Below are positions 33,490 to 48,799 of a stretch of 64,000 nucleotides of DNA, piece by piece. The translations under genes were made by a program, and so were the position numbers. Under the pieces are notes generated by a model, which was not told where the DNA came from, did no database searches, and was given only the letters and a program-made list of their open reading frames with translations. Location of the stretch: assembly GCF_013168275.1 (NCBI RefSeq), contig NZ_AP019547.1:2852001-2916000 (forward strand), given 5' to 3'. The DNA is from Candidatus Nitrotoga sp. AM1P. GTDB taxonomy: Bacteria > Pseudomonadota > Gammaproteobacteria > Burkholderiales > Gallionellaceae. Every line of letters starts with the position of its first letter. Position 1 is the first letter of the stretch.

Positions 33490-35088
33490 ATGGAAAGTTT
33501 TAGCGCAGTACCCCGGATGTCCTGTTTTATTGCACCGCTTGTTGTTCTGTTTGCCGGCCTGTTGTCCGGCAATGCCGTTGCCGCCTGGTCAACCAACCCG
33601 GCGGTCAACAATGCGGTATCCACGGCCGCGAATCACCAATCTTATCCAATCATAATAAGCGACGGCAGCGGCGGGGCGATTATCACCTGGCAGGATGCTC
33701 GCAGCGGCACTAATGACATCTATGCCCAGCGGATAAACGCGAGCGGAGTGGTGCAATGGACCGCAGACGGAGTCGCGATATCCACGGCCGCAGAAGACCA
33801 AGTAAATTCAACCCTAACAAGCGACGGCAGCGGCGGAGCGATTATCACCTGGCAGGATAGTCGCAACTTTGGCCCTATCCCCTTTACTGGTCCTCGCATC
33901 GGCAGTACTGACATCTATGCCCAGCGGATAAACGCGAGCGGGGTGGTGCAATGGGCCGCAGACGGAATCGCGATATCCACGGCCGCAAATCACCAATCTG
34001 ATCCAACTCTAATAAGTGACGGCAGCGGCGGGGCGATTATCACCTGGCAGGATGCTCGCAGCGGCACTAATGACATCTATGCCCAGCGGATAAACGCGAG
34101 CGGAGTGGTGCAATGGACCGCAGACGGAGTCGGAATATCCAAGGCCGCAAATGACCAATTTAGTCCAGACATAACAAGCGACGGCAGCGGCGGGGCGATT
34201 ATCACCTGGTGGGATTTTCGCAGCGGCGCAAATTGGGACATCTATGCTCAGCGGATAGGCGCGAGCGGAGTAGTGCAGTGGGCCGCAGACGGAGTCGCGA
34301 TATCCACGGCCTCAGATGACCAATCAAATCCAACCATAACAAGTGACGGCAGCGGCGGGGCGATTATCACCTGGCAGGATTTTCGCAGCGGCACAAATCA
34401 GGACATCTATGCCTAGCGGATAAGCTCGAGCGGAGTGGTGCAATGGAACGCAAACGGAGTCGCGATATCCACGGCTGCAAATTACCAATTTAATCAAACC
34501 ATAATAAGCGACGGCAGCGGCGGGGCGATTATCACCTGGTCTGATATTCGCAGCGGCGCAAGTTGGGACATCTATGCCCAGCGGATAGGTGCAAACGGGG
34601 CATTCACCAGTCTGCCCGTCGTTGAGTTCTATAACACCAACCTGGATCATTATTTCATTACCGCCAACGCCGGTGAGGCTGCAGGCATCGACGGGGGTAG
34701 CGCGGGGCCTGGCTGGATTCGAACCGGAAATAGTTTCAAGTCGGGCGGCAGCACGCCCGTTTTCCGCTTCTACGGCAGCCAGGTCCCCGGCCCCAATTCG
34801 CATTTCTATACAGCATCGGCCTCTGAATGTGATGGCCTTAAGCAGCTTCAGACCACCACGCCCGCCGCGCAGAAGCGCTGGAATTTCGAAAGTCTGGATT
34901 TTGTTTCGACTCCACCGACCAATGGTATATGTCCGACCGGGACAGCGCCGGTCTACCGGGCCTATAACAATGGGTTTGCCCGCGGTGTCGACAGCAATCA
35001 TCGCATTTCCAGTGCTACAGCAGCTATTCAGGAAGTCGTCGCGCGCGGCTGGATCGATGAAGGTATAGTCATGTGCGCTCCGACTTGA
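33490..35088 (+). pseudogene. Secreted tandem-repeat protein with DUF5648-like C-terminus, internal stop
   Basis: From MESFSAVPRMSCF the protein has a signal peptide ending near AVAA. Six repeats of 54-64 residues follow, each with SDGSGGAIITWQDARSGTNDIYAQRI and ASGVVQWTADGVAIS. The C-terminal 150 residues (VVEFYNTNLDHYFITANAGE ... FRFYGS ... SHFYTASASEC) look like DUF5648. In repeat five the codon that is CAG in the other copies is TAG (34414-34416), a single C-to-T change. The frame continues unchanged to 35088. Without readthrough, a 308-residue product lacks the C-terminal domain. The repeats resemble propeller-like surface repeats; function unknown. Confidence 0.75.
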
Positions 35089-40695: not shown

Positions 40696-41540
40696 TCACT
40701 GATTTGCACTCGTCACATACTTGGCTAGGCAAGCAACCATCGTGTTTCGGTGGATTTCAAGCACACGTTCCAACGGTGTCTGATAGCCACCAGCCAGATT
40801 CCAGACGAGCGGAATACCGATTTCTTTCGCAACTGAAAACACGATTCGATCTCGCTTTGCCAGTTCCTTCGTAGTCAGAAAATCACCAAGCGGATCATCG
40901 ATATGTTGATCGGCTCCGGCTTGATAAATCAGCAAGTCACAATCAGAAAAACTGCGTACGACTGCCGCTAACTTATCGACAAATCTCTTGGAATCGGATG
41001 CAGAGCAGTATTCCTCTGAGACATGACGAATCCAGTCAATAGCAAGTCGTGTAATGATTTCTGCAGTTCCATCACCGTAGTGCTGGTCGCAGTCCAGAAT
41101 GCCAACTCGCCTGACTTTTTTTCCGCTTTCAAAACCAGTGCAGTAACCATCAATCCATTAAAAGTACAGTAGCCAAAGCCTGATTTGTAGCTGGCGTGGT
41201 GAAACCCTGATGTAGGAGAGCATGCGACCAAACCATTATCCAGTGCACAACGAGCGGCTGACAGGATTGAGCCGGAAGTCCAAGGCAAGGATTCGGCAAC
41301 ATCCCTCTGCCGGCCACAAAATCCATTTCTCAAGTCGCAATCTAAAACGCCATGAACGTAACTTCGATCATGTGCATGCGCGATCTGCTTTCGTGTCACC
41401 GGAACCGGATCAATGATACGGATAGGTAGGCTTGTCTCAATCCAGTTGGCAACCACCAGCGCTGGCTTGCGAGGGCTTGGAGAAAATGTCTCCGGGTTGG
41501 AAATCTGCTTTGGTGAGAAATATACATCTATGAATTTCAT
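40696..41540 (-). pseudogene. Histone deacetylase/acetylpolyamine amidohydrolase family, frameshifted
   Basis: The N-terminal two thirds reads MKFIDVYFSPKQ ... HDRSYVHGVLDC ... GFHHASYKSGFGYCTFNGL, the zinc deacetylase fold with the His-His pair. The frame fails at an A7 run (41116-41122). Adding one base restores VGILDCDQHYGDGT and then LIYQAGADQHIDDPLGDFLT, with the metal-binding Asp and His residues, down to a stop at 40696. So one missing base breaks an otherwise complete gene of about 280 residues. It lies 31 bases after the next gene on the same strand, probably in one operon. Confidence 0.8.
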
Positions 41541-41571: not shown

Positions 41572-42003
41572 CTAAAAACTCTCGGCCCAGCGGTCCCAGA
41601 AATCTGGTTCATCATGATGAACATTATTCATGGCGGCATGAAGCGTCAAGGCAAAGAACCAGACACCCGGCCGGCGAGTGCTCCCATCGGGATTTTCCAA
41701 GTAGTTGAGGAGTTGCTGATAGACCGGATTCGTCTCCTCAAAGGGCACGTCGATATATATTTGCCCAGCGTAAGACCTCATCGAATTTGTGTCGGCAACA
41801 TCACAGCAGGATTGCCATCTGATCTGGTTATTGTTTAACCACTCGATGACCGATTGCCGACCTACCGATGATTCCCAGTTCCAACTGGAATTTGGTTTTT
41901 TGATTTCCCAATCCGGGTTATCTGGGTCGGAAAATTTGAGGAAGAGTACATCGCGCTGCTTTTGACGGGCGATGGCGTCGATGTGTTCAATCAACTGCGG
42001 CAT
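41572..42003 (-). CDS. Hypothetical protein next to the deacetylase
   Basis: This roughly 143-residue soluble protein starts MPQLIEHIDAIARQKQRDVL and ends FWDRWAESF. It is rich in Trp, Asn and acidic residues, with no signal or membrane segment. I do not recognise a domain. An upstream Met at 42027 would add eight residues. It precedes the broken deacetylase gene in the same direction with a short gap. Confidence 0.65.
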   Translation of the reverse strand: MPQLIEHIDAIARQKQRDVLFLKFSDPDNPDWEIKKPNSSWNWESSVGRQSVIEWLNNNQIRWQSCCDVADTNSMRSYAGQIYIDVPFEETNPVYQQLLNYLENPDGSTRRPGVWFFALTLHAAMNNVHHDEPDFWDRWAESF

Positions 42004-42126
42004 AATATTTCTCGTTTGATGGAACACCCATAGTTTCCATGCAGAAACGACGAAATGCGTCGCATATTGCCCGACAACGGAATCAGGACATCAGGTCAGG
42101 ACAGCGGGGGCAGGTCTCGCGCGGCG

Positions 42127-42444
42127 CTAGATGCCTGAAATGAGCATGTCCATCGCACCGAGTATTTCATATCGGATATGTTCCAGTGTTGTCACTTCGG
42201 ACTTTAAAATTGATTTTGGAACAGACGTTATTTGATGAGTAAGTAGTACAAAGCTTGTACCATCAATATCGATAATTGGACATAGATTCTTAACGTCAGT
42301 TTTTTGTAATGCCGTGTGTGGTGACAAAGGTATAACAACCCGTGAGTTTAAGTCATTGAGTAAAGTGTTTTGAATGTCAACGAAATATGGGTATGTCTCA
42401 TTAGAGGTGCTATCAACATTGCGGTAAAGAGTAAATTGGCTCAT
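42127..42444 (-). CDS. ccdB: CcdB-family toxin
   Basis: CcdB poisons DNA gyrase. The 105-residue protein has the family start QFTLYRNVDSTSNETYPYFVDIQNTLL, the middle block RVVIPLS and the C-terminal helix with ALGAMD-like LGAMDMLISGI. Its ATG overlaps the ccdA stop (TAATG), typical of the coupled operon. The terminal Trp-Gly-Ile of F-plasmid CcdB, needed for gyrase contact, reads SGI here. Confidence 0.92.
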   Translation of the reverse strand: MSQFTLYRNVDSTSNETYPYFVDIQNTLLNDLNSRVVIPLSPHTALQKTDVKNLCPIIDIDGTSFVLLTHQITSVPKSILKSEVTTLEHIRYEILGAMDMLISGI

Positions 42445-42689
42445 TAGAAATTTCGGTATGAATCAGAGAATAAACCATTTCTTTCAGCTAATTCATTCAA
42501 TGACTCTATAGCTTTTTTATTACTCTTAAGCCATTTGTCTCGCTCAGTAGTTCTAAGCTCATCTGCCAGTGCTCGCTCTAGGGTGGCTGATAGATTAATT
42601 TTTAATTCTCTTGCTTTTGACAGCAAGTCACTGTTAATGCTTAAGTTTGTTGCCTTTTTTGAAGCAGTTTCATCATAAAGCTGGAGCAT
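42444..42689 (-). CDS. ccdA: CcdA-family antitoxin
   Basis: This 81-residue antitoxin has an N-terminal ribbon-helix-helix DNA-binding part (KKATNLSINSDLLSKARELKINLSATLERAL) and a C-terminal toxin-binding tail (NKKAIESLNELAERNGLFSDSYRNF). AAAGGACC precedes the start. It should repress its own operon through the palindrome just upstream. Confidence 0.92.
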   Translation of the reverse strand: MLQLYDETASKKATNLSINSDLLSKARELKINLSATLERALADELRTTERDKWLKSNKKAIESLNELAERNGLFSDSYRNF

Positions 42690-42707
42690 GGTAACGGTCC
42701 TTTGGTT

Positions 42708-42732
42708 ATATGCGTATATAGTGTGCGCATAT
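42708..42732 (-). promoter_or_regulatory. Putative ccdAB operator
   Basis: An inverted repeat ATATGCG (42708-42714) and CGCATAT (42726-42732), separated by 11 bases, lies 19-43 bases upstream of the ccdA start. The AT-rich centre can host a -10 box. Position and symmetry fit autorepression by CcdA/CcdB. Confidence 0.5.
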
Positions 42733-42812
42733 TAAATGTAGCGGCATGATGTGTAAAGAAGGCGACGGGATTTACATGGCTGCATTAGAGCCGCCAAGAT
42801 AAAAACGCAAAT

Positions 42813-43440
42813 TTACTCATTCGCCACACCATGTGGCACATGCCCCGTAGCAACGTGCTGATAAGCGGATTCGCAATGTTTCTGCTGGTCATCAAAGAAA
42901 ATGTCCACCCCGAAAGCCTTCAGGAATTCGCCTTTGTCCTTTCCACCCAGGAATAGCGCTTCATCAATGCGGATGTGTTCCATGCGCGTAAAGTACGGAT
43001 GACGCGCTCGTGGGCGGGTGCGCCGCGCGCGGTGATGAGCGCGGTACGGATAGGTGAAATATTTCCCAGAGAGTCGAGTTGAATCTGGTGCAGCATGGCA
43101 AGGAAATTTTTGAACGGACCACCGGGTAGTGGCTGCTTGGCGGCAAGTATTTCGTTGCTTTCAAAAGCATCCAGCCCATCCCGTCTGTAGATGCGCTCAG
43201 ACTCATCCGAGAACAACACTGCGTCGCCGTCGAAAGCGATGCGCAACTGTTTGGGATTAACTTCAGCCAACGGCGCTGCCGACGAGGGCAGAATCGTCGC
43301 GGCAGCGAATCCAGCTTTCAGTGCCTTGCGCACGTCACTTGGATCAGCGGAAAGAAATAATTGCGCGCCGAATGCCGAAATATAGGGATGCGTACTCTCG
43401 CCTCGCGTAAATGCCGCCCGGCTGATATTCAGGCTATGGT
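42813..43440 (-). pseudogene. Cytosolic 5'-nucleotidase family protein, truncated and frameshifted
   Basis: Recognisable segments of a PF06189-type 5'-nucleotidase are IQHHSLNISRAAFTRGES, FGAQLFLSADPSDVRKALKAGFAAATILPS, RIAFDGDAVLFSDESE and RTALITARGAPAHERVIRTLRAWN. A two-base excess (ACAC) near 42973 shifts the frame; the original continues IRIDEALFLGGKDKGEFLKAF and ends GHVPHGVANE at 42813. The 5' part, including the start and first roughly 60 codons, is missing and the gene begins abruptly beside the repeat-protein gene. It is non-functional. Confidence 0.75.
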
Positions 43441-43463
43441 GCTGGATCGAGTAAATCTACTGG

Positions 43464-43784
43464 CTAATACAGGCGCAAAACCAGCTTTCCCGCTACAGCC
43501 AGTATGGAATGGTCACCCATGTCATATATGTTGGATGCATTTGCGCCATTCTTAGGCTTTATTTTTCGACTCTCTACCACCCAAGTATTGCTAGAAGAGG
43601 CGCCGCTCTTGGGTTTGAGTTCTTTACCGTCCCAAAGCCATGTGTTTGAAGAAGAAGCGCTAGTTTTTGGTTTAATTTCTTTGCCATCACATATCCAAGT
43701 ATTGGATGACGAAGCCCCACTCCTTGGCTTCAGTTCCCGTCCGTCACAAATCCAGCTTTTTGGAAAATCAACATCTAAACCCAT
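43464..43784 (-). CDS. Small protein of about 21-residue tandem repeats
   Basis: The 106-residue protein begins MGLDVDFPKSWICDGRELKP, then repeats a unit of about 21 residues four times. Each unit has a Trp, a short acidic turn (DGKE), the stretch KPKSGASSS and Asn. It ends in a non-repeat tail (ILAVAGKLVLRLY). The regular W-D-G-K spacing suggests a small beta-solenoid or stacked hairpins. AGAGAGG precedes the ATG. It is the last gene of the DUF2779-WYL-DUF262 run, about 70 bases after it. I do not know a function. Confidence 0.7.
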   Translation of the reverse strand: MGLDVDFPKSWICDGRELKPRSGASSSNTWICDGKEIKPKTSASSSNTWLWDGKELKPKSGASSSNTWVVESRKIKPKNGANASNIYDMGDHSILAVAGKLVLRLY

Positions 43785-43853
43785 GGTAAGCCTCTCTTTG
43801 ATGAATTATCGTCATCCATGGTATGCCAACAACAGTGAAAGTCATTTTCGCAA

Positions 43854-46085
43854 TTATTTAGGCATGATGGATTTGCACGCTTCGTAGTATTGGAAGTAGA
43901 GTCCCCGCGCCCTTCTGTGTACCGCACTTTGAAAGGCCTGCAAACGTGCTTCATTCCATGTTCGGTCCTCATTTCCATCGATATTGACATCGACATTGGG
44001 CGATGCTGTTTTCCATTCTTTTTCATGTTCAGGATAGTGATAGAGCAAGCTATCCGCATAGTACATCCCTGAATTGAGCTTTGAAGTAAGTGCAACATCA
44101 CCAAAGCTCCGATTCAGGCTGGATTCAAGCACGTGCAGATTGCCAATGCAGTTGCCCACATCATGTCTCCCCGCATGGAATTTTTTCATCACTTCCGATT
44201 TTTCATCAAAAGTTCTGATAATGTTGCGCCAGTCTGCGCCCCAATGGTTCTGTGGGCATAGATGGTCAAAATCGTAGGGAACGGTATCTTCGTCAGTTAA
44301 CCCTGCGAATTCGTTTTGCGACTTCTCGTTAAATTTCTGATGAACATAGGCGCGCTGCAACCAAAGTAATATGGGTTTCCGTCCCCAGCAGAAGCGCTTG
44401 TAGAGTTCTTTCTGCTTATTAGTTGAACTATCCGACTGCGACTGGAAAATTTCATCGCGTGATCGAAGAGATGCGCTAGTGTCTTGTTTTAAAATATTCT
44501 CTAATGCCTCATACGACATTAAAGGTAAGGCCAACCCGAACTGATCATCTTGGGCATCAATTAGTTTTTCGTAAAGATTTATTGCTGGGAAAGCGCCTAG
44601 GTCGCTACTGTTGATAATTTCAAACGCTTTTTTGCTTGCATTGTGTTCATCCCAAACATTCAGATACCAAAACAAGCTGAACGAAACGATTTTTTGTCGA
44701 TTGTCTTCGATGGTGTTTTGAGCGGGATTGAGCATAATCCAGCGCAACAACACTTGAATCAGTCCACGCGAAAGGTGGGGCATCATGGGCAATGGCAGAC
44801 CAATATCCTGTTCACCCTGGTAGCACAGTAATTTATATAGAGATTCGAAAGCCGAGGTTAAGCTGTTGCTTTCTTCAAGGTAGTCGCGTAAGGGTTTGCC
44901 TGACTCCCCCTTCTTGCCAAGAAGTCTGTCCAGATGGCGATGAAAATCATTGGGATTAGGACGTGGATTGTCAGCAATTTGTGCGCCCGGATCGTTATCG
45001 TTGTTTTTTTGTGCAGCCGCCAAGCGAAATGCGGACATGACGTAATCAGTTGCGCTCATGAACGCGCGAACTGATATCTTATCGTGAATTCCATTGACCA
45101 ATTCCTGTGCTTCTGGCCATTTTTGTTTGATCATTGAGAACAACAAATCTTCTGCACTCAGACTGGCACCGTTTCGCCCTATGCGCTCGAACAGCAAGAC
45201 CAATGGATTAGGCGTATCGTTTGGAGTGGCTGCCTCCGGTGAGCTAATATGCTCTGGGATCAATATTAGCGGGACTTCGAGCATTTCTAAATGTTTGAAA
45301 GCCTTGTGCAGGTTGGAAAACCTTCCATCCAGGTTAGAAAGCTTTTTATTATCCGCAAAGTGGCTTTTGAACAAATCTAGAAATGCCTGTTCGTCATTGG
45401 CTGTTTTTATGAATGCCTCCCACAAGTCCTTCACTTTGACGAAATGGTTTGATTCGCTCCCGGCTCTCCATGGGCGGGGTGGAGAATGTTCTGTTTTTAA
45501 ATCAAACAATTCATAGTCGGGTTTTTCTTTCTCTTCGCCAGAGGTGAGCTCGTCATAAATTTCTCTGGCTTTTTTTCGATCTGATCTCGAAAGTCGACTG
45601 TGTGAAGGGCGTTGGAAACCGAAGGGCTGCGTTTTGGTTGTAAGGCGGATATCAAACGGTGAGCCTGCATATCCCTCTTCAGCAAGGTCAATCCACAAGC
45701 AATGCTGGAGTTGGGTTGAATTTATGAATGGACAGCCGATCAGCATAGCCAGCGTTCTTTGTTGTCCATCAAGTAGCCCCATGGCTTCGCTGCTTATGTT
45801 TTCAGTCTTTTTTTCTTTAATAGTGAGAGTGCTTGCAACCTGCCCCTCTGACAGTTTGCTGAGCATCAGGCTGCCGATGGGCATTCCTCTTAACAAGGAA
45901 TCCCATAAATCAACAATCTGTTTGGGTTTCCATACGAAGCCACGCTGAATAGCCGGTAGTAAAAGCTCTTTTTCATACGTTTCGTTTCCAGTCGCCCACT
46001 TCAAATATTCCGGTAGTTTCATACCGCACACTTGGTTATTATCTGTAAAAGGCCAATTTTTACTGCTGCTCTTTTTGTTCTCCAT
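43854..46085 (-). CDS. DUF262/DUF1524 protein (GmrSD-type endonuclease-like)
   Basis: The N-terminal DUF262 (ParB/Srx-like) carries PAIQRGFVWKPKQIVDLWDSLL (from about residue 44) and the nucleotide-site motif LLDGQQRTLAML (DGQQR 106-110). The C-terminal DUF1524-like His-Me nuclease part has YDFDHLCPQNHW (Asp607-His608) and GNLHVLESSLNRSFGD (about 648-663). This two-domain plan is that of GmrSD-type modification-dependent endonucleases and SspE-like phage-defence effectors. Length is 743. It starts five bases after the WYL gene with GGAGAG upstream, so it is in the same operon. Probable role is DNA restriction; the trigger is unknown. Confidence 0.85.
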   Translation of the reverse strand: MENKKSSSKNWPFTDNNQVCGMKLPEYLKWATGNETYEKELLLPAIQRGFVWKPKQIVDLWDSLLRGMPIGSLMLSKLSEGQVASTLTIKEKKTENISSEAMGLLDGQQRTLAMLIGCPFINSTQLQHCLWIDLAEEGYAGSPFDIRLTTKTQPFGFQRPSHSRLSRSDRKKAREIYDELTSGEEKEKPDYELFDLKTEHSPPRPWRAGSESNHFVKVKDLWEAFIKTANDEQAFLDLFKSHFADNKKLSNLDGRFSNLHKAFKHLEMLEVPLILIPEHISSPEAATPNDTPNPLVLLFERIGRNGASLSAEDLLFSMIKQKWPEAQELVNGIHDKISVRAFMSATDYVMSAFRLAAAQKNNDNDPGAQIADNPRPNPNDFHRHLDRLLGKKGESGKPLRDYLEESNSLTSAFESLYKLLCYQGEQDIGLPLPMMPHLSRGLIQVLLRWIMLNPAQNTIEDNRQKIVSFSLFWYLNVWDEHNASKKAFEIINSSDLGAFPAINLYEKLIDAQDDQFGLALPLMSYEALENILKQDTSASLRSRDEIFQSQSDSSTNKQKELYKRFCWGRKPILLWLQRAYVHQKFNEKSQNEFAGLTDEDTVPYDFDHLCPQNHWGADWRNIIRTFDEKSEVMKKFHAGRHDVGNCIGNLHVLESSLNRSFGDVALTSKLNSGMYYADSLLYHYPEHEKEWKTASPNVDVNIDGNEDRTWNEARLQAFQSAVHRRARGLYFQYYEACKSIMPK

Positions 46086-46090
46086 TATTG

Positions 46091-47065
46091 TTACTCTCCA
46101 TGATAAATAGCAGCATCAGACCGCACCACCGCTGACACCGACTCTCCAAACCCCCTCAACCACCACTCCAGCATCGCCGAATCCACCACTGTCGCAGTAA
46201 TTTCGTAGGCATCCTCCAGTTCCACTACCGTCTGATCCGCAGACAGCGGCGATTCCAGCAAATGCAACCCGGCTTCCTTTTCAATGCGGAAGCTCAACCG
46301 AACGCGCTGTCCATCGCCATATCCAAAGCGTCCATCGTCGTCGTACTGCTTGAGGTCGAAATCTTTGGGACGTTCAAAGGTCAGGGTCGATGCGCGCGCT
46401 GAAAGGATACGATGCAGCGCGAGGCTTCTTTCGTTGTTGTAGCCATCAAAACGGCACACAAGATACATGCGTGGTCCTTGCTGGGCGAGTCCCAGCGGCA
46501 TCACGCGGGTTGAGGTTCGTTTACCGGCGGCGTTTTTGTAATCCACCTCCAGCCACTGGTTGCCGTAAAGCGCATTGCTGACCTGATCAAATACGATGGG
46601 ATCAACCTTGGGTGGCAGTAGCGGCTGGCTGGTGTTGACCACGCGTACTTTTTCCAGCCATTCACGATCACGCTGGGTCGTACTTTTGTCCCCCAGTTGG
46701 CTGCGCGCCTGGGTGAAGAAGCCTTCCATGGATTTCATCAATTTGGCGGGCAGCAAGTTGCTCAAGTGTTGCTCAGCCAGCATGAGTAGCAATGATTCCT
46801 GCGTGCTGAGGCATGGTAGCGACAGCCCCTTGGCGCAGGGTTTCCAGCTATATCGGTAGGGCTTGGTGCTGTCATCGCGGTCGATATCGAAAAACTCGGA
46901 AAGCGTTTCCAGTTGGCGCTGGATAGTGCGCATATCCCGCTCAAAGCCAGCGTCCGCTAGTTGTTGGCGCAGTTCAGGGGCTGTGATCGTGCGGCCTTTG
47001 GGTATGCGCCGTAATAGCTCATGAGAGAGCTGGAGCGTTTCCAGCGAATCTGGGCGTTTTGGCAT
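46091..47065 (-). CDS. WYL-domain transcriptional regulator
   Basis: This 324-residue protein has an N-terminal winged helix-turn-helix (LSHELLRRIPKGRTITAPELRQQL) and a central WYL domain (WLEVDYKNAAGKRTSTRVMPLGL ... RMYLVCRFDGYNNERSLALHRI). A WCX-like C-terminal part ends YHGE. Such regulators (CapW/BrxR relatives) often repress phage-defence operons until a nucleic-acid or nucleotide signal is sensed. The start lies three bases past the DUF2779 stop, so the genes are coupled. It most likely controls this operon. Confidence 0.88.
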   Translation of the reverse strand: MPKRPDSLETLQLSHELLRRIPKGRTITAPELRQQLADAGFERDMRTIQRQLETLSEFFDIDRDDSTKPYRYSWKPCAKGLSLPCLSTQESLLLMLAEQHLSNLLPAKLMKSMEGFFTQARSQLGDKSTTQRDREWLEKVRVVNTSQPLLPPKVDPIVFDQVSNALYGNQWLEVDYKNAAGKRTSTRVMPLGLAQQGPRMYLVCRFDGYNNERSLALHRILSARASTLTFERPKDFDLKQYDDDGRFGYGDGQRVRLSFRIEKEAGLHLLESPLSADQTVVELEDAYEITATVVDSAMLEWWLRGFGESVSAVVRSDAAIYHGE

Positions 47066-47068
47066 GGC

Positions 47069-48568
47069 TTATAGCTCCAAGTCAGTGCGGCCGGCAAATA
47101 CTTGCCATAGACGGACCATGGCGTAGGTATCGAGCTTGCAGTATTCAAGAAGTTGCTGTTCGATTTGGGCTTTGCGCTCGGCGCTGGTGTTCGGATGGAT
47201 GCCTTCGAGGAAGGCGCCCATTGCCATGCCGCCATCTTGCACGCCGTCGAGGGCATCGTAGCGCAGTTCCGGAACTACGGCGGGCAATACCTTCTTGATG
47301 CTCCAGCTGCCTTGTTGGCTGGGATGGTAGTAACGCTCGCGGGCGATGGGCAGCAGATCGACCACACGTGCGTTGATGGCCAGCAGCGATTCGCTCAAGC
47401 GCGGGTAACGTTCGGCCAGTTCGCGAATGCGCGCTTTCTCAAATCCAGCGTTGTACACGTACACGGGGCCTTGCTTACCACATGCAGCAATCAGCGCATG
47501 AGCGAAGGGTTCGGAAGGATTGTTTCCTGTAAGGTCAAGGAAGGCCGTCTGTTCAAGCTGGCCGAATATAGTAAGAGTGTGCAGGCTGAACTGGAAGGTA
47601 ATCTGCTGGTAGGGGCGGGTACCTTTCCAGATGGGTACGGCGAACTGGATGGTTTCGAAGTCGAGAAAATAGGCGGGAAGATCATGTGCAGCCAAATCTG
47701 CTGCGGCGCCAGCAGCATCGAAGAACACCTCATTGGCGAGGGTGTAATCTTTGACCCGCTGTTGTTTGTCGTTGAGCAGATCGTCTGGTACATCCTTTAG
47801 ATCGTAGACACCTTTTATGGCGAGCTCTTTTGCCTTTGCCGAGGAAAAGCGGGGCAGCCAACAGACCGGGTATTCCGACTTAGGCTCATCGCGATTGCAA
47901 TAATCGTAAAAACCGCATTCAAAGGGCGTGCCGCAATGGTCGCCAGTTCCAATAACAGGCTCGGAAGGCTCGGCGGCGATGCTTTGCGCTTGGGCAATCC
48001 AGCCTTTGACTTCATCGGTTCGAGAGAACGCCTCGGCTGTGAGATCATTTTCTTTTAGCAGCCCTCGGTAATCCTCATTTCCTGGATAGACCCATGAGCT
48101 ATCAATGTGCGCCAGGGCAATGGCTTCCAGCGAAACGCCCGCTGACTGAGCCACAAACGCCTGCACGGCCACGTCATCGCGGTGGTAATCTTTCACGCTG
48201 GTAGAGGATTTTACTTCGATCATGCGCCAGACCTGCTTGCCATCCTTTTGCACCGGCAGCATCACATCGGCAAAGGCAAGTGCGCCAGCAGAAGAGAAAC
48301 CCGCCTCAAAGATCGGTTGTGCTGAATGAAGTGATTCCGCGCTACGTTCGAACGCACGGTTGAATCCTTCGTTTTGTAAGTCGATCACGACACCACGCCC
48401 CTCTGGGTCATAAATGCGCTGGGCAATATCGCCAACTTGAAAACCGACCTGAAAATTTGCCTGAGTTGCGGACGAATCTTCGCGCAAGTCTGGGCGATGA
48501 ACTTCCAGCCATAAACGTTTGGGACACTGGCGGAGGGCCATGAGCTTGGACTTTGAGAATGCGCGCAT
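47069..48568 (-). CDS. DUF2779 protein: Cas4-like nuclease plus DEDDy exonuclease motifs
   Basis: This 499-residue protein has two visible nuclease parts. Residues 1-230 look like Cas4/RecB-family: SKSKLMALRQCPKRLWLE (Cys15), Asp101 in ALAFADVMLP, Glu118-Val-Lys120 (MIEVKSS), and a Cys cluster C212-x5-C218-x5-C224 that with Cys15 could hold an Fe-S cluster. Residues 298-495 have the three exonuclease motifs: FLDFETIQ (Asp303, Glu305), VYVYNAGFEKARI, and Tyr476-x3-Asp480 (YCKLD), the DEDDy form. This is the first gene of a tight operon with WYL and DUF262. The family has no agreed function that I know; DNA processing in defence is a reasonable inference. Confidence 0.82.
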   Translation of the reverse strand: MRAFSKSKLMALRQCPKRLWLEVHRPDLREDSSATQANFQVGFQVGDIAQRIYDPEGRGVVIDLQNEGFNRAFERSAESLHSAQPIFEAGFSSAGALAFADVMLPVQKDGKQVWRMIEVKSSTSVKDYHRDDVAVQAFVAQSAGVSLEAIALAHIDSSWVYPGNEDYRGLLKENDLTAEAFSRTDEVKGWIAQAQSIAAEPSEPVIGTGDHCGTPFECGFYDYCNRDEPKSEYPVCWLPRFSSAKAKELAIKGVYDLKDVPDDLLNDKQQRVKDYTLANEVFFDAAGAAADLAAHDLPAYFLDFETIQFAVPIWKGTRPYQQITFQFSLHTLTIFGQLEQTAFLDLTGNNPSEPFAHALIAACGKQGPVYVYNAGFEKARIRELAERYPRLSESLLAINARVVDLLPIARERYYHPSQQGSWSIKKVLPAVVPELRYDALDGVQDGGMAMGAFLEGIHPNTSAERKAQIEQQLLEYCKLDTYAMVRLWQVFAGRTDLEL

Positions 48569-48799
48569 GTTATTTATGAGTTGGGAGGGTGAAGAATAAA
48601 TGCCATTATCGTTCAGTATGCGTCATTTTGTGTCGTGTCAGAATTGCTCTTTCTTGACTACAAAGTGATACAGAGCTTGATGCGGTGCAACTGGCGTGCA
48701 GTGGGTCAACGCACCGGTAATGCGTTCTTCGCTTTGCGTGATAATGGCAGCATTAGGGCTGGTGCAATATCCGCTCAATTGCTGTACGCAGTGGCTTTC

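Follow-up and report, generated by a model that had tools for sequence, protein, structure and literature searches.

A DUF2779-WYL gene pair as a probable two-gene header of exchangeable immune genes in Candidatus Nitrotoga sp. AM1P

In a stretch of 64,000 nucleotides from Candidatus Nitrotoga sp. AM1P (contig NZ_AP019547.1, positions 2,852,001 to 2,916,000; hereafter the window), four genes stand in a row on the minus strand, and the locus raises the question of whether they form one defence system or a combination of separable parts. The row begins with a DUF2779 gene (47069-48568, 499 amino acids; PF11074, E 1.6e-41), followed by a gene for a WYL regulator (46091-47065, 324 amino acids; PF13280, E 6.9e-10), a GmrSD_N/DUF262 gene (43854-46085, 743 amino acids; PF03235, E 3.9e-22) and a gene, here called rep, for a small protein with 19-residue repeats and a hydrophobic C-terminus (43464-43784, 106 amino acids). 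A sequence-only reading of the locus had correctly placed all four open reading frames on one strand, the intergenic gaps being 3, 5 and 69 bases, and had given each gene a ribosome site; by eye, a stretch resembling such a site precedes three of the four, and none is obvious before DUF2779. The comparisons presented here indicate that DUF2779 and WYL probably constitute a two-gene header controlling interchangeable immune cargo, a stress-responsive plug-in controller, with the GmrSD_N/DUF262 gene and rep as the cargo in the window. At the sequence level this is supported by a conserved pair, its co-divergence, the exchange of cargo, a conserved locus-specific box and kept active-site residues.

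Relatives of the window DUF2779 were gathered from 398 genomes of the phylum (24 matched), 399 genomes of the order (45 matched), genome contigs (76 loci) and plasmids (29 records, 8 of them opened). Labels in L and G denote fetched loci and genomes, and six duplicate loci were removed before counting. With loci having less than 600 bp behind DUF2779 or a missing DUF2779 end excluded, the share of loci with a same-strand WYL gene directly behind DUF2779 was 52/76 where the DUF2779 identity reached at least 56%, 6/26 for identities of 40-56% and 0/23 for those below 40%. The distances of the two proteins co-vary across 48 loci (Mantel r 0.785, 0/999 permutations) and also inside the close clade (r 0.52, n = 43, 0/999); DUF2779 proteins shorter than 450 amino acids were excluded from this analysis and from that of residue conservation given below. 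A two-AAA ATPase of about 700 amino acids often precedes DUF2779 and co-diverges with it (r 0.707, n = 16 loci, 0/999). Because the genes are frequently adjacent and diverge together, DUF2779-WYL, with or without the AAA gene, is by these comparisons an inherited core. The closest DUF2779 relatives in the genome contigs were those of Nitrotoga CP45 (93%) and SPKER (92%); there were 0 matches in 50,697 phage records, and one contig with a match in IMG/VR.

A 19-bp palindrome, TGCGACA-N5-TGTCGCA, was found ahead of the gene that opens the unit. Nineteen of 60 loci had it, with at most two mismatches, no more than 220 bp from DUF2779, compared with 0.02 of 60 expected after shuffling; in 16 of the 20 loci that begin with the AAA gene, it stood upstream of that gene. 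Within 3 kb upstream, 42 of the 52 header loci carried a box at this stringency compared with a permuted mean of 0.85 and maximum of 3, and 27 of 52 carried one with at most one mismatch compared with 0.05; the control consisted of 20 permuted half-sites, and loci with less than 400 bp ahead or an incomplete start were excluded. The 36 whole genomes searched contain 8 exact copies, each at most 2.3 kb from a DUF2779 gene or, once, from fragments of one; these copies fell in 6 of the 18 genomes with DUF2779 and in 0 of the 18 without. When one mismatch was allowed in 8 DUF2779 genomes, 15 of 21 copies were at most 10 kb from a DUF2779 gene.

Among the 132 copies with at most two mismatches in the fetched loci, 117 had a gene start within 300 bp. 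The labelled targets were AAA (n = 35), DUF2779 (n = 27), FtsZ-like (n = 12), deacetylase-like (n = 8), WYL (n = 4), x185 (n = 2) and PP2C (n = 1) genes; a further 80 target assignments were without label, and two of ten of these that were scanned were DnaB-like. At most one mismatch being allowed, the distance from box to gene start was 50-60 bp in 25 of 99 cases. The DnaB-like helicase genes L123 3432-4187 and L150 6760-8109 each have a box about 50 bp before the start. In two loci (L171 8969-9925 and L173 8971-9927) a distinct protein of 318 amino acids that looks like a helix-turn-helix (HTH) protein is encoded before DUF2779, and a box lies 56 bp in front of its gene.

The candidate box of the window itself is an imperfect palindrome at 48619-48637, 69 bp before the ATG of DUF2779, with 3 mismatches to the palindrome above. 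As judged by eye, a -10-like hexamer, GATAAT (48605-48610, minus strand), follows 8 bp past it; the box overlaps the expected -35 position, and -10-like hexamers at similar spacing were seen in several relatives. The CGAC-N7-GTCG core of the relatives' box is the core of the DriD site at the same spacing, the DriD consensus being ATACGAC-N7-GTCGTAT in the accessible text of PMC12340889. The outer bases differ, TG in the box and ATA in the DriD site, and the window copy has one imperfect half.

The regulator itself points in the same direction. A profile of 41 WYL proteins searched against solved structures matched best to 7u02 (E 2.9e-11), which is titled merely WYL domain protein and which we take to be DriD, followed by 8tp8 (DriD, E 1.3e-10) and 6sj9 (PafBC, E 1.6e-9); the BrxR entries 7QFZ and 7T8K were absent from the 9 distinct structure sequences matched at E ≤ 0.01. 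The sequence-only reading was right about a WYL regulator within the unit and about its defence-type context; by sequence, the protein stands closer to DriD and PafBC than to BrxR, one of the two relatives which that reading had named. In the window protein the WYL family exceeded its Pfam cut-off, WCX remained below it (E 6.7e-4, 20.4 bits, cut-off 23.9), and no HTH family of Pfam was present at a significant E-value. None of the PADLOC models names the header proteins: WYL matched general CRISPR-associated WYL models (best E 2.6e-17) and, weakly, others, and DUF2779 gave weak Cas4 matches.

Since DriD and PafBC are the nearest relatives, since the box shares the DriD core, and since the site of the activator SiwR is likewise a 19-bp imperfect palindrome spanning -35 to -10 (PMC10693628, as far as accessible), the WYL protein most likely binds at this box. 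For this one step of the reading, a repressor of the CapW/BrxR kind, which would keep a harmful operon off through a box over its promoter, is a possible but somewhat improbable alternative. The phage-defence WYL regulators named in the accessible text of PMC10693628 are repressors, and the box lies where a -35 element would sit; on the other side, the WYL sequence is nearer to the activators DriD and PafBC, the box core is that of DriD, SiwR as an activator uses a palindrome of the same length and placement, and no good -35 hexamer was seen by eye beside the -10-like element. On balance, activation by the WYL protein appears a little more likely than repression.

What the first header gene would contribute can be read from 109 DUF2779 sequences, in which four cysteines, a D/E/K set, and a DEDD set with a tyrosine are nearly invariant: C15, C212, C218, C224, D101, E118, K120, D303, E305, D404, Y476 and D480 are each kept in at least 94% of the sequences with a residue there. 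The window protein has the family domain and both predicted active sites, and its Cas4-like part scores weakly (PADLOC Cas4, E 6.2e-4). With these near-invariant residues the protein fits a predicted Fe-S Cas4-like PD-(D/E)XK nuclease fused to a DEDD 3'-5' exonuclease. The earlier inference of nucleases, both here and in the DUF262 protein, is supported at the level of prediction. The accessible part of PMC3985635 describes PF11074/COG2251 (the TM0106 and UU173 families) as a DUF83 Cas4-like domain with an RNase H-like domain and a presumed 3'-5' exonuclease; these fusions have the domain pair that is predicted for the window DUF2779, and no regulator partner appears in that part of their description.

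Behind the header, the content changes from locus to locus. Among the 51 header loci whose next gene is known, 41 had that gene on the same strand as WYL; in 30 of the 41 the gap did not exceed 150 bp, and in 12 of the 41 the cargo started at most 20 bp from WYL. GmrSD_N was first or second behind WYL in 10 of the 41 (the window, L087, L092, L122, L129, L135, L146, L147, L152 and L156). PLD-helicase-type triples related to PDC-M27 or ZacABC occupied five slots (L029, L142, L149, L154 and L175); the L142 helicase gene and the second genes of L154 and L175 were the only ones to match in the scan at 1e-10. PDDEXK_4/PDC-S26 nucleases were found in two slots (L144 and L141), PDC-S02 in one (L184), and FtsZ-like, deacetylase-like, Exo_endo_phos and Nmad3 plus Nmad2 proteins in others. 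In total, GmrSD or a PADLOC family was present in at least 18 of the 41 slots, a subset of the slot genes having been scanned and several of those being without match. FtsZ/tubulin-like GTPases recur in the islands L029, L086, L087, L126, L133, L141, L145 and L148, some with a box in front or divergent from an AAA gene.

Cargo of one family also does not follow its header. Eight GmrSD cargos were mutually 22-55% identical and their DUF2779 headers 59-93%, and the two sets of distances were unrelated (Mantel r -0.06, n = 8, 516/999); this comparison left out the two-GmrSD loci L147 and L152 and the partial L182.

The exchange can be followed directly at one chromosomal locus shared by three Nitrotoga-type genomes, namely the window, CP45 and SPKER. 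The flanks are 89-94% identical, and the cargos are GmrSD plus rep in the window, a GmrSD 31% identical to it in CP45 and a PDDEXK_4 nuclease in SPKER. Identity to SPKER ends at window position 46139 and to CP45 at 46146, with about 48-55 bases of the WYL reading frame still to come, and resumes at 43455 or 43452, 9-12 bases past rep. The exchanged segment (43456-46138, minus strand) thereby comprises the end of WYL, GmrSD and rep, and in the window it truncates the neighbouring 5'-nucleotidase gene. Likewise, the order genome G539 contains two copies of the entire locus, whose flanks are 98.5-98.8% identical and whose slot genes differ. Because the cargo starts close to WYL, and because the junctions in close pairs lie at the 3' end of WYL, the cargo is placed for co-transcription with the header.

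From these observations we infer a chain of events in which a DNA-stress signal, most likely single-stranded DNA (ssDNA) as for DriD, PafBC and SiwR, would reach the WYL protein bound to its dedicated 19-bp palindrome over the -35/-10 region, before the header or the preceding two-AAA ATPase gene. The signal would alter, and probably activate, transcription of the unit, comprising the DUF2779 protein as a putative double nuclease, WYL itself and the presumably co-transcribed cargo downstream. In the window the cargo would be a GmrSD-type restriction enzyme directed at modified invading DNA together with the small repeat protein, and the outcome may be defence against phages.

A number of observations weigh against this reading. 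The relatives were collected by similarity to the window DUF2779, and the pair frequencies refer to that set, in which 24 of the 76 close relatives have no WYL gene directly behind DUF2779. A box (at most two mismatches, 3 kb) is still present in 20 of the 66 DUF2779 loci without WYL directly behind. Of the 21 one-mismatch copies in the 8 genomes, six are remote from DUF2779, and 7 copies were found with the reversed control pattern; boxes also precede genes untypical of defence (DnaB-like, FtsZ-like and deacetylase-like). The window box, at 3 mismatches, is no better than chance when taken alone, with 2 matches found in the window and 3.5 expected, and the count for the whole genome at 3 mismatches, 162 forward matches compared with 148 for the reversed control, is uninformative; weak alone, the window box gains its significance from being conserved among relatives. 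In Nitrotoga SPKER both header genes have fallen into pieces (L144 10001-12457), and therefore the module can decay. Finally, six residues are required for ssDNA binding by PafB according to the accessible text of PMC11804915, and by eye only Y201, R213 and R219 seem kept; A216, a near-invariant alanine, replaces one of two arginines essential for that binding (R211), and the WYL motif lacks its tryptophan. With only three of the six residues seemingly kept and one key arginine replaced, the case for ssDNA as the ligand is weaker, though still plausible.

DUF2779-WYL, with or without AAA, could instead be a self-contained defence or DNA-repair system, the downstream genes then belonging to other systems of the island and being reached by positional read-through only. 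In favour of this, both predicted DUF2779 nuclease sites are conserved, the AAA protein co-diverges with DUF2779, 10 of the 51 loci lack a same-strand next gene, and the islands gather defence genes, as genomic islands are known to do. The short distance from WYL to cargo in 12 of 41 slots, at most 20 bp, and the junctions at the 3' end of WYL in close pairs speak against such an arrangement, and we regard it as unlikely. Within the header reading, a closed-loop switch is a further and likewise unlikely possibility, in which DUF2779 would make or trim the ssDNA that WYL senses and so couple DNA processing to the transcription of plug-in immune genes; the unit would then spread with exchangeable weapons and draw AAA, FtsZ-like, deacetylase-like and DnaB-like genes under its own box. 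That the four genes are a dedicated restriction system, with DUF2779 and GmrSD as nucleases under WYL control and rep as partner, is very improbable, and this proposal of the sequence-only reading was rejected because conserved co-occurrence of the four genes is lacking: the full set was found in three loci (the window, L156 and L092), with rep before or after GmrSD, and rep, although found in 4 of 399 order genomes each time beside DUF2779 or its end, also stands behind headers without an adjacent GmrSD (L126 and L140) and in a different order, and GmrSD was found in 10 of the 41 slots only, with distances unrelated to those of the header in the eight cases compared.

As to the cargo that would be under control of the header in the window, the DUF262 protein contains the motifs QRG.VW and DGQQR and, near its C-terminus, DH..P and GNL motifs, which are HNH-like. 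A DUF1524 domain had been named for it; the DH..P and GNL motifs are indeed there, and the Pfam match (PF07510 GmrSD_C, E 0.15, 12.3 bits) stays below the cut-off of 23. One solved relative was found at E ≤ 1, 7p9k (E 1.4e-9), deposited as a DUF262 domain-containing protein and presumably BrxU. An enzyme of the GmrSD type would be expected to cut modified invading DNA. A pattern scan, which finds close relatives only, detected neither GmrSD nor rep in viral contigs.

The repeats of rep have a period of 19 residues and not of 21 as first described (39 self-matches at lag 19 and 11 at lag 21), with repeat positions at W11, W30, W49, W68 and Y87. Pfam gave nothing reliable for the 106-residue protein. 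In ten pairwise comparisons among five homologues, the three codon positions showed 290, 231 and 642 differences, and for this reason the gene looks truly coding in its frame. The occurrences in the order genomes include one weak match (G589, E 5.8e-8). Further copies beside DUF2779 (L126, L140 and L156) and a partial one (L192) add no independent weight because these loci were fetched by DUF2779. Rep seems more closely associated with the header than with GmrSD. A relative with 48% identity is encoded on a Salinibacter ruber plasmid (L033 1579-1827), with no DUF2779 among the annotated neighbours within 5 kb.

Two structural candidates for rep were rejected. Matches in the PDB to WD40/WRAP designer proteins (E about 1e-7) were taken as an effect of composition because they are summed from many individually weak repeat-to-repeat matches, with i-Evalues of 5.4-6.6 each in the one alignment shown. 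A beta-flower fold remains a lead only, without support by sequence: profile comparison gave a probability of 1.6%, and six 19-residue-repeat proteins had no match to PF21784-PF21786 at E ≤ 10, under filters that drop most weak matches. Beta-flower proteins of these families do occur in both G539 copies of the locus; the one in L087 matches Bflower_3 (E 6.4e-26), is six-fold, and has 20-residue repeats and, by eye, a hydrophobic C-terminus like the window rep. Behind the repeat genes of L126 and L109 lie genes for proteins of 233-240 amino acids with GIEPG/GYEWG motifs (L126 12819-13541 and L109 6044-6745), neither with a Pfam match, which bring uracil-DNA glycosylases to mind.

Small regulatory units near the promoters of diverse immune operons, namely CapW/BrxR, CapH+CapP and CapK+CapS, have been described as controllers of associated or adjacent pathways (PMC9122601 and PMC13373217, as far as accessible). 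The DUF2779-WYL unit resembles them as a small regulatory unit heading diverse immune operons and differs in composition, the accessible descriptions of the three giving regulators, with a protease or kinase, and no nuclease, whereas the header here has a predicted Cas4-like/DEDD double nuclease co-diverging with WYL. The ssDNA-sensing activators, DriD of Caulobacter as well as PafBC and SiwR of mycobacteria, have a WYL-WCX architecture, which the window protein may share given its sub-threshold WCX score, DriD with PafBC being the best sequence match; the literature presents them as regulators of the response to stress or DNA damage and not as leading exchangeable immune genes. With the type IV enzymes BrxU, SspE, TgvB and GrwA, the window cargo shares DUF262, DGQQR and the DH..P/GNL motifs. 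In what is accessible of their descriptions, BrxU, TgvB and GrwA occur with BREX, with type I restriction or in pairs; the window GmrSD gene instead takes the first position behind a nuclease-WYL header. No DUF2779-WYL pair was seen in literature titles and abstracts, a search that did not cover most subscription papers and bioRxiv and leaves absence unproven; the term DUF2779 has 0 occurrences in PMC9122601 and PMC12409362. By this comparison the DUF2779-WYL header would extend the theme of controllers of adjacent pathways, with the nuclease as a fixed part being the new element.

Interest in controllers shared by many different immune operons is recent, and the header, if correctly understood, would be one with a built-in nuclease and a searchable operator. 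New defence genes could then be sought simply by the box together with the slot behind WYL, the slot in this set already holding relatives of GmrSD, ZacAB, PDC-M27, PDC-S26 and PDC-S02 as well as proteins without family match. The idea that a WYL sensor cooperates with an enzyme whose substrate is the sensor's presumed ligand would also become testable.

Beyond the four genes, the row is adjoined by CcdA, CcdB and broken genes, in agreement with the sequence-only reading. The remnant of the 5'-nucleotidase gene (42780-43452, minus strand; PF06189, E 3e-43 over part of the family) is shortened at its 5' end and broken; a full-length relative is present in L144. Next to it, ccdA and ccdB (42127-42689, minus strand; PF07362, E 2.3e-28, and PF01845, E 2.4e-31) lie inside a 708-bp stretch (42072-42779). 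CcdAB was rejected as a part of the system and counted as a separate insertion because this stretch is replaced by 29 bp at the CP45 and SPKER loci. Further on, the minus strand carries a gene for a protein of 143 amino acids (41572-42003), whose open reading frame in a 151-residue reading has no Pfam match, and a broken histone-deacetylase-like gene in two open reading frames (40696-41540), recognised by eye from the L087 protein, which matches PF00850. Longer relatives of the deacetylase-like and 5'-nucleotidase remnants were found in the G539 islands (L086 and L087), and a look-alike of the 143-residue protein, 146 amino acids long and similar by eye, is encoded in L106 with a box 55 bp ahead. 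Elsewhere in the window, at 33698-34589, there is a long tandem array with about 4 copies of a 165-bp unit.

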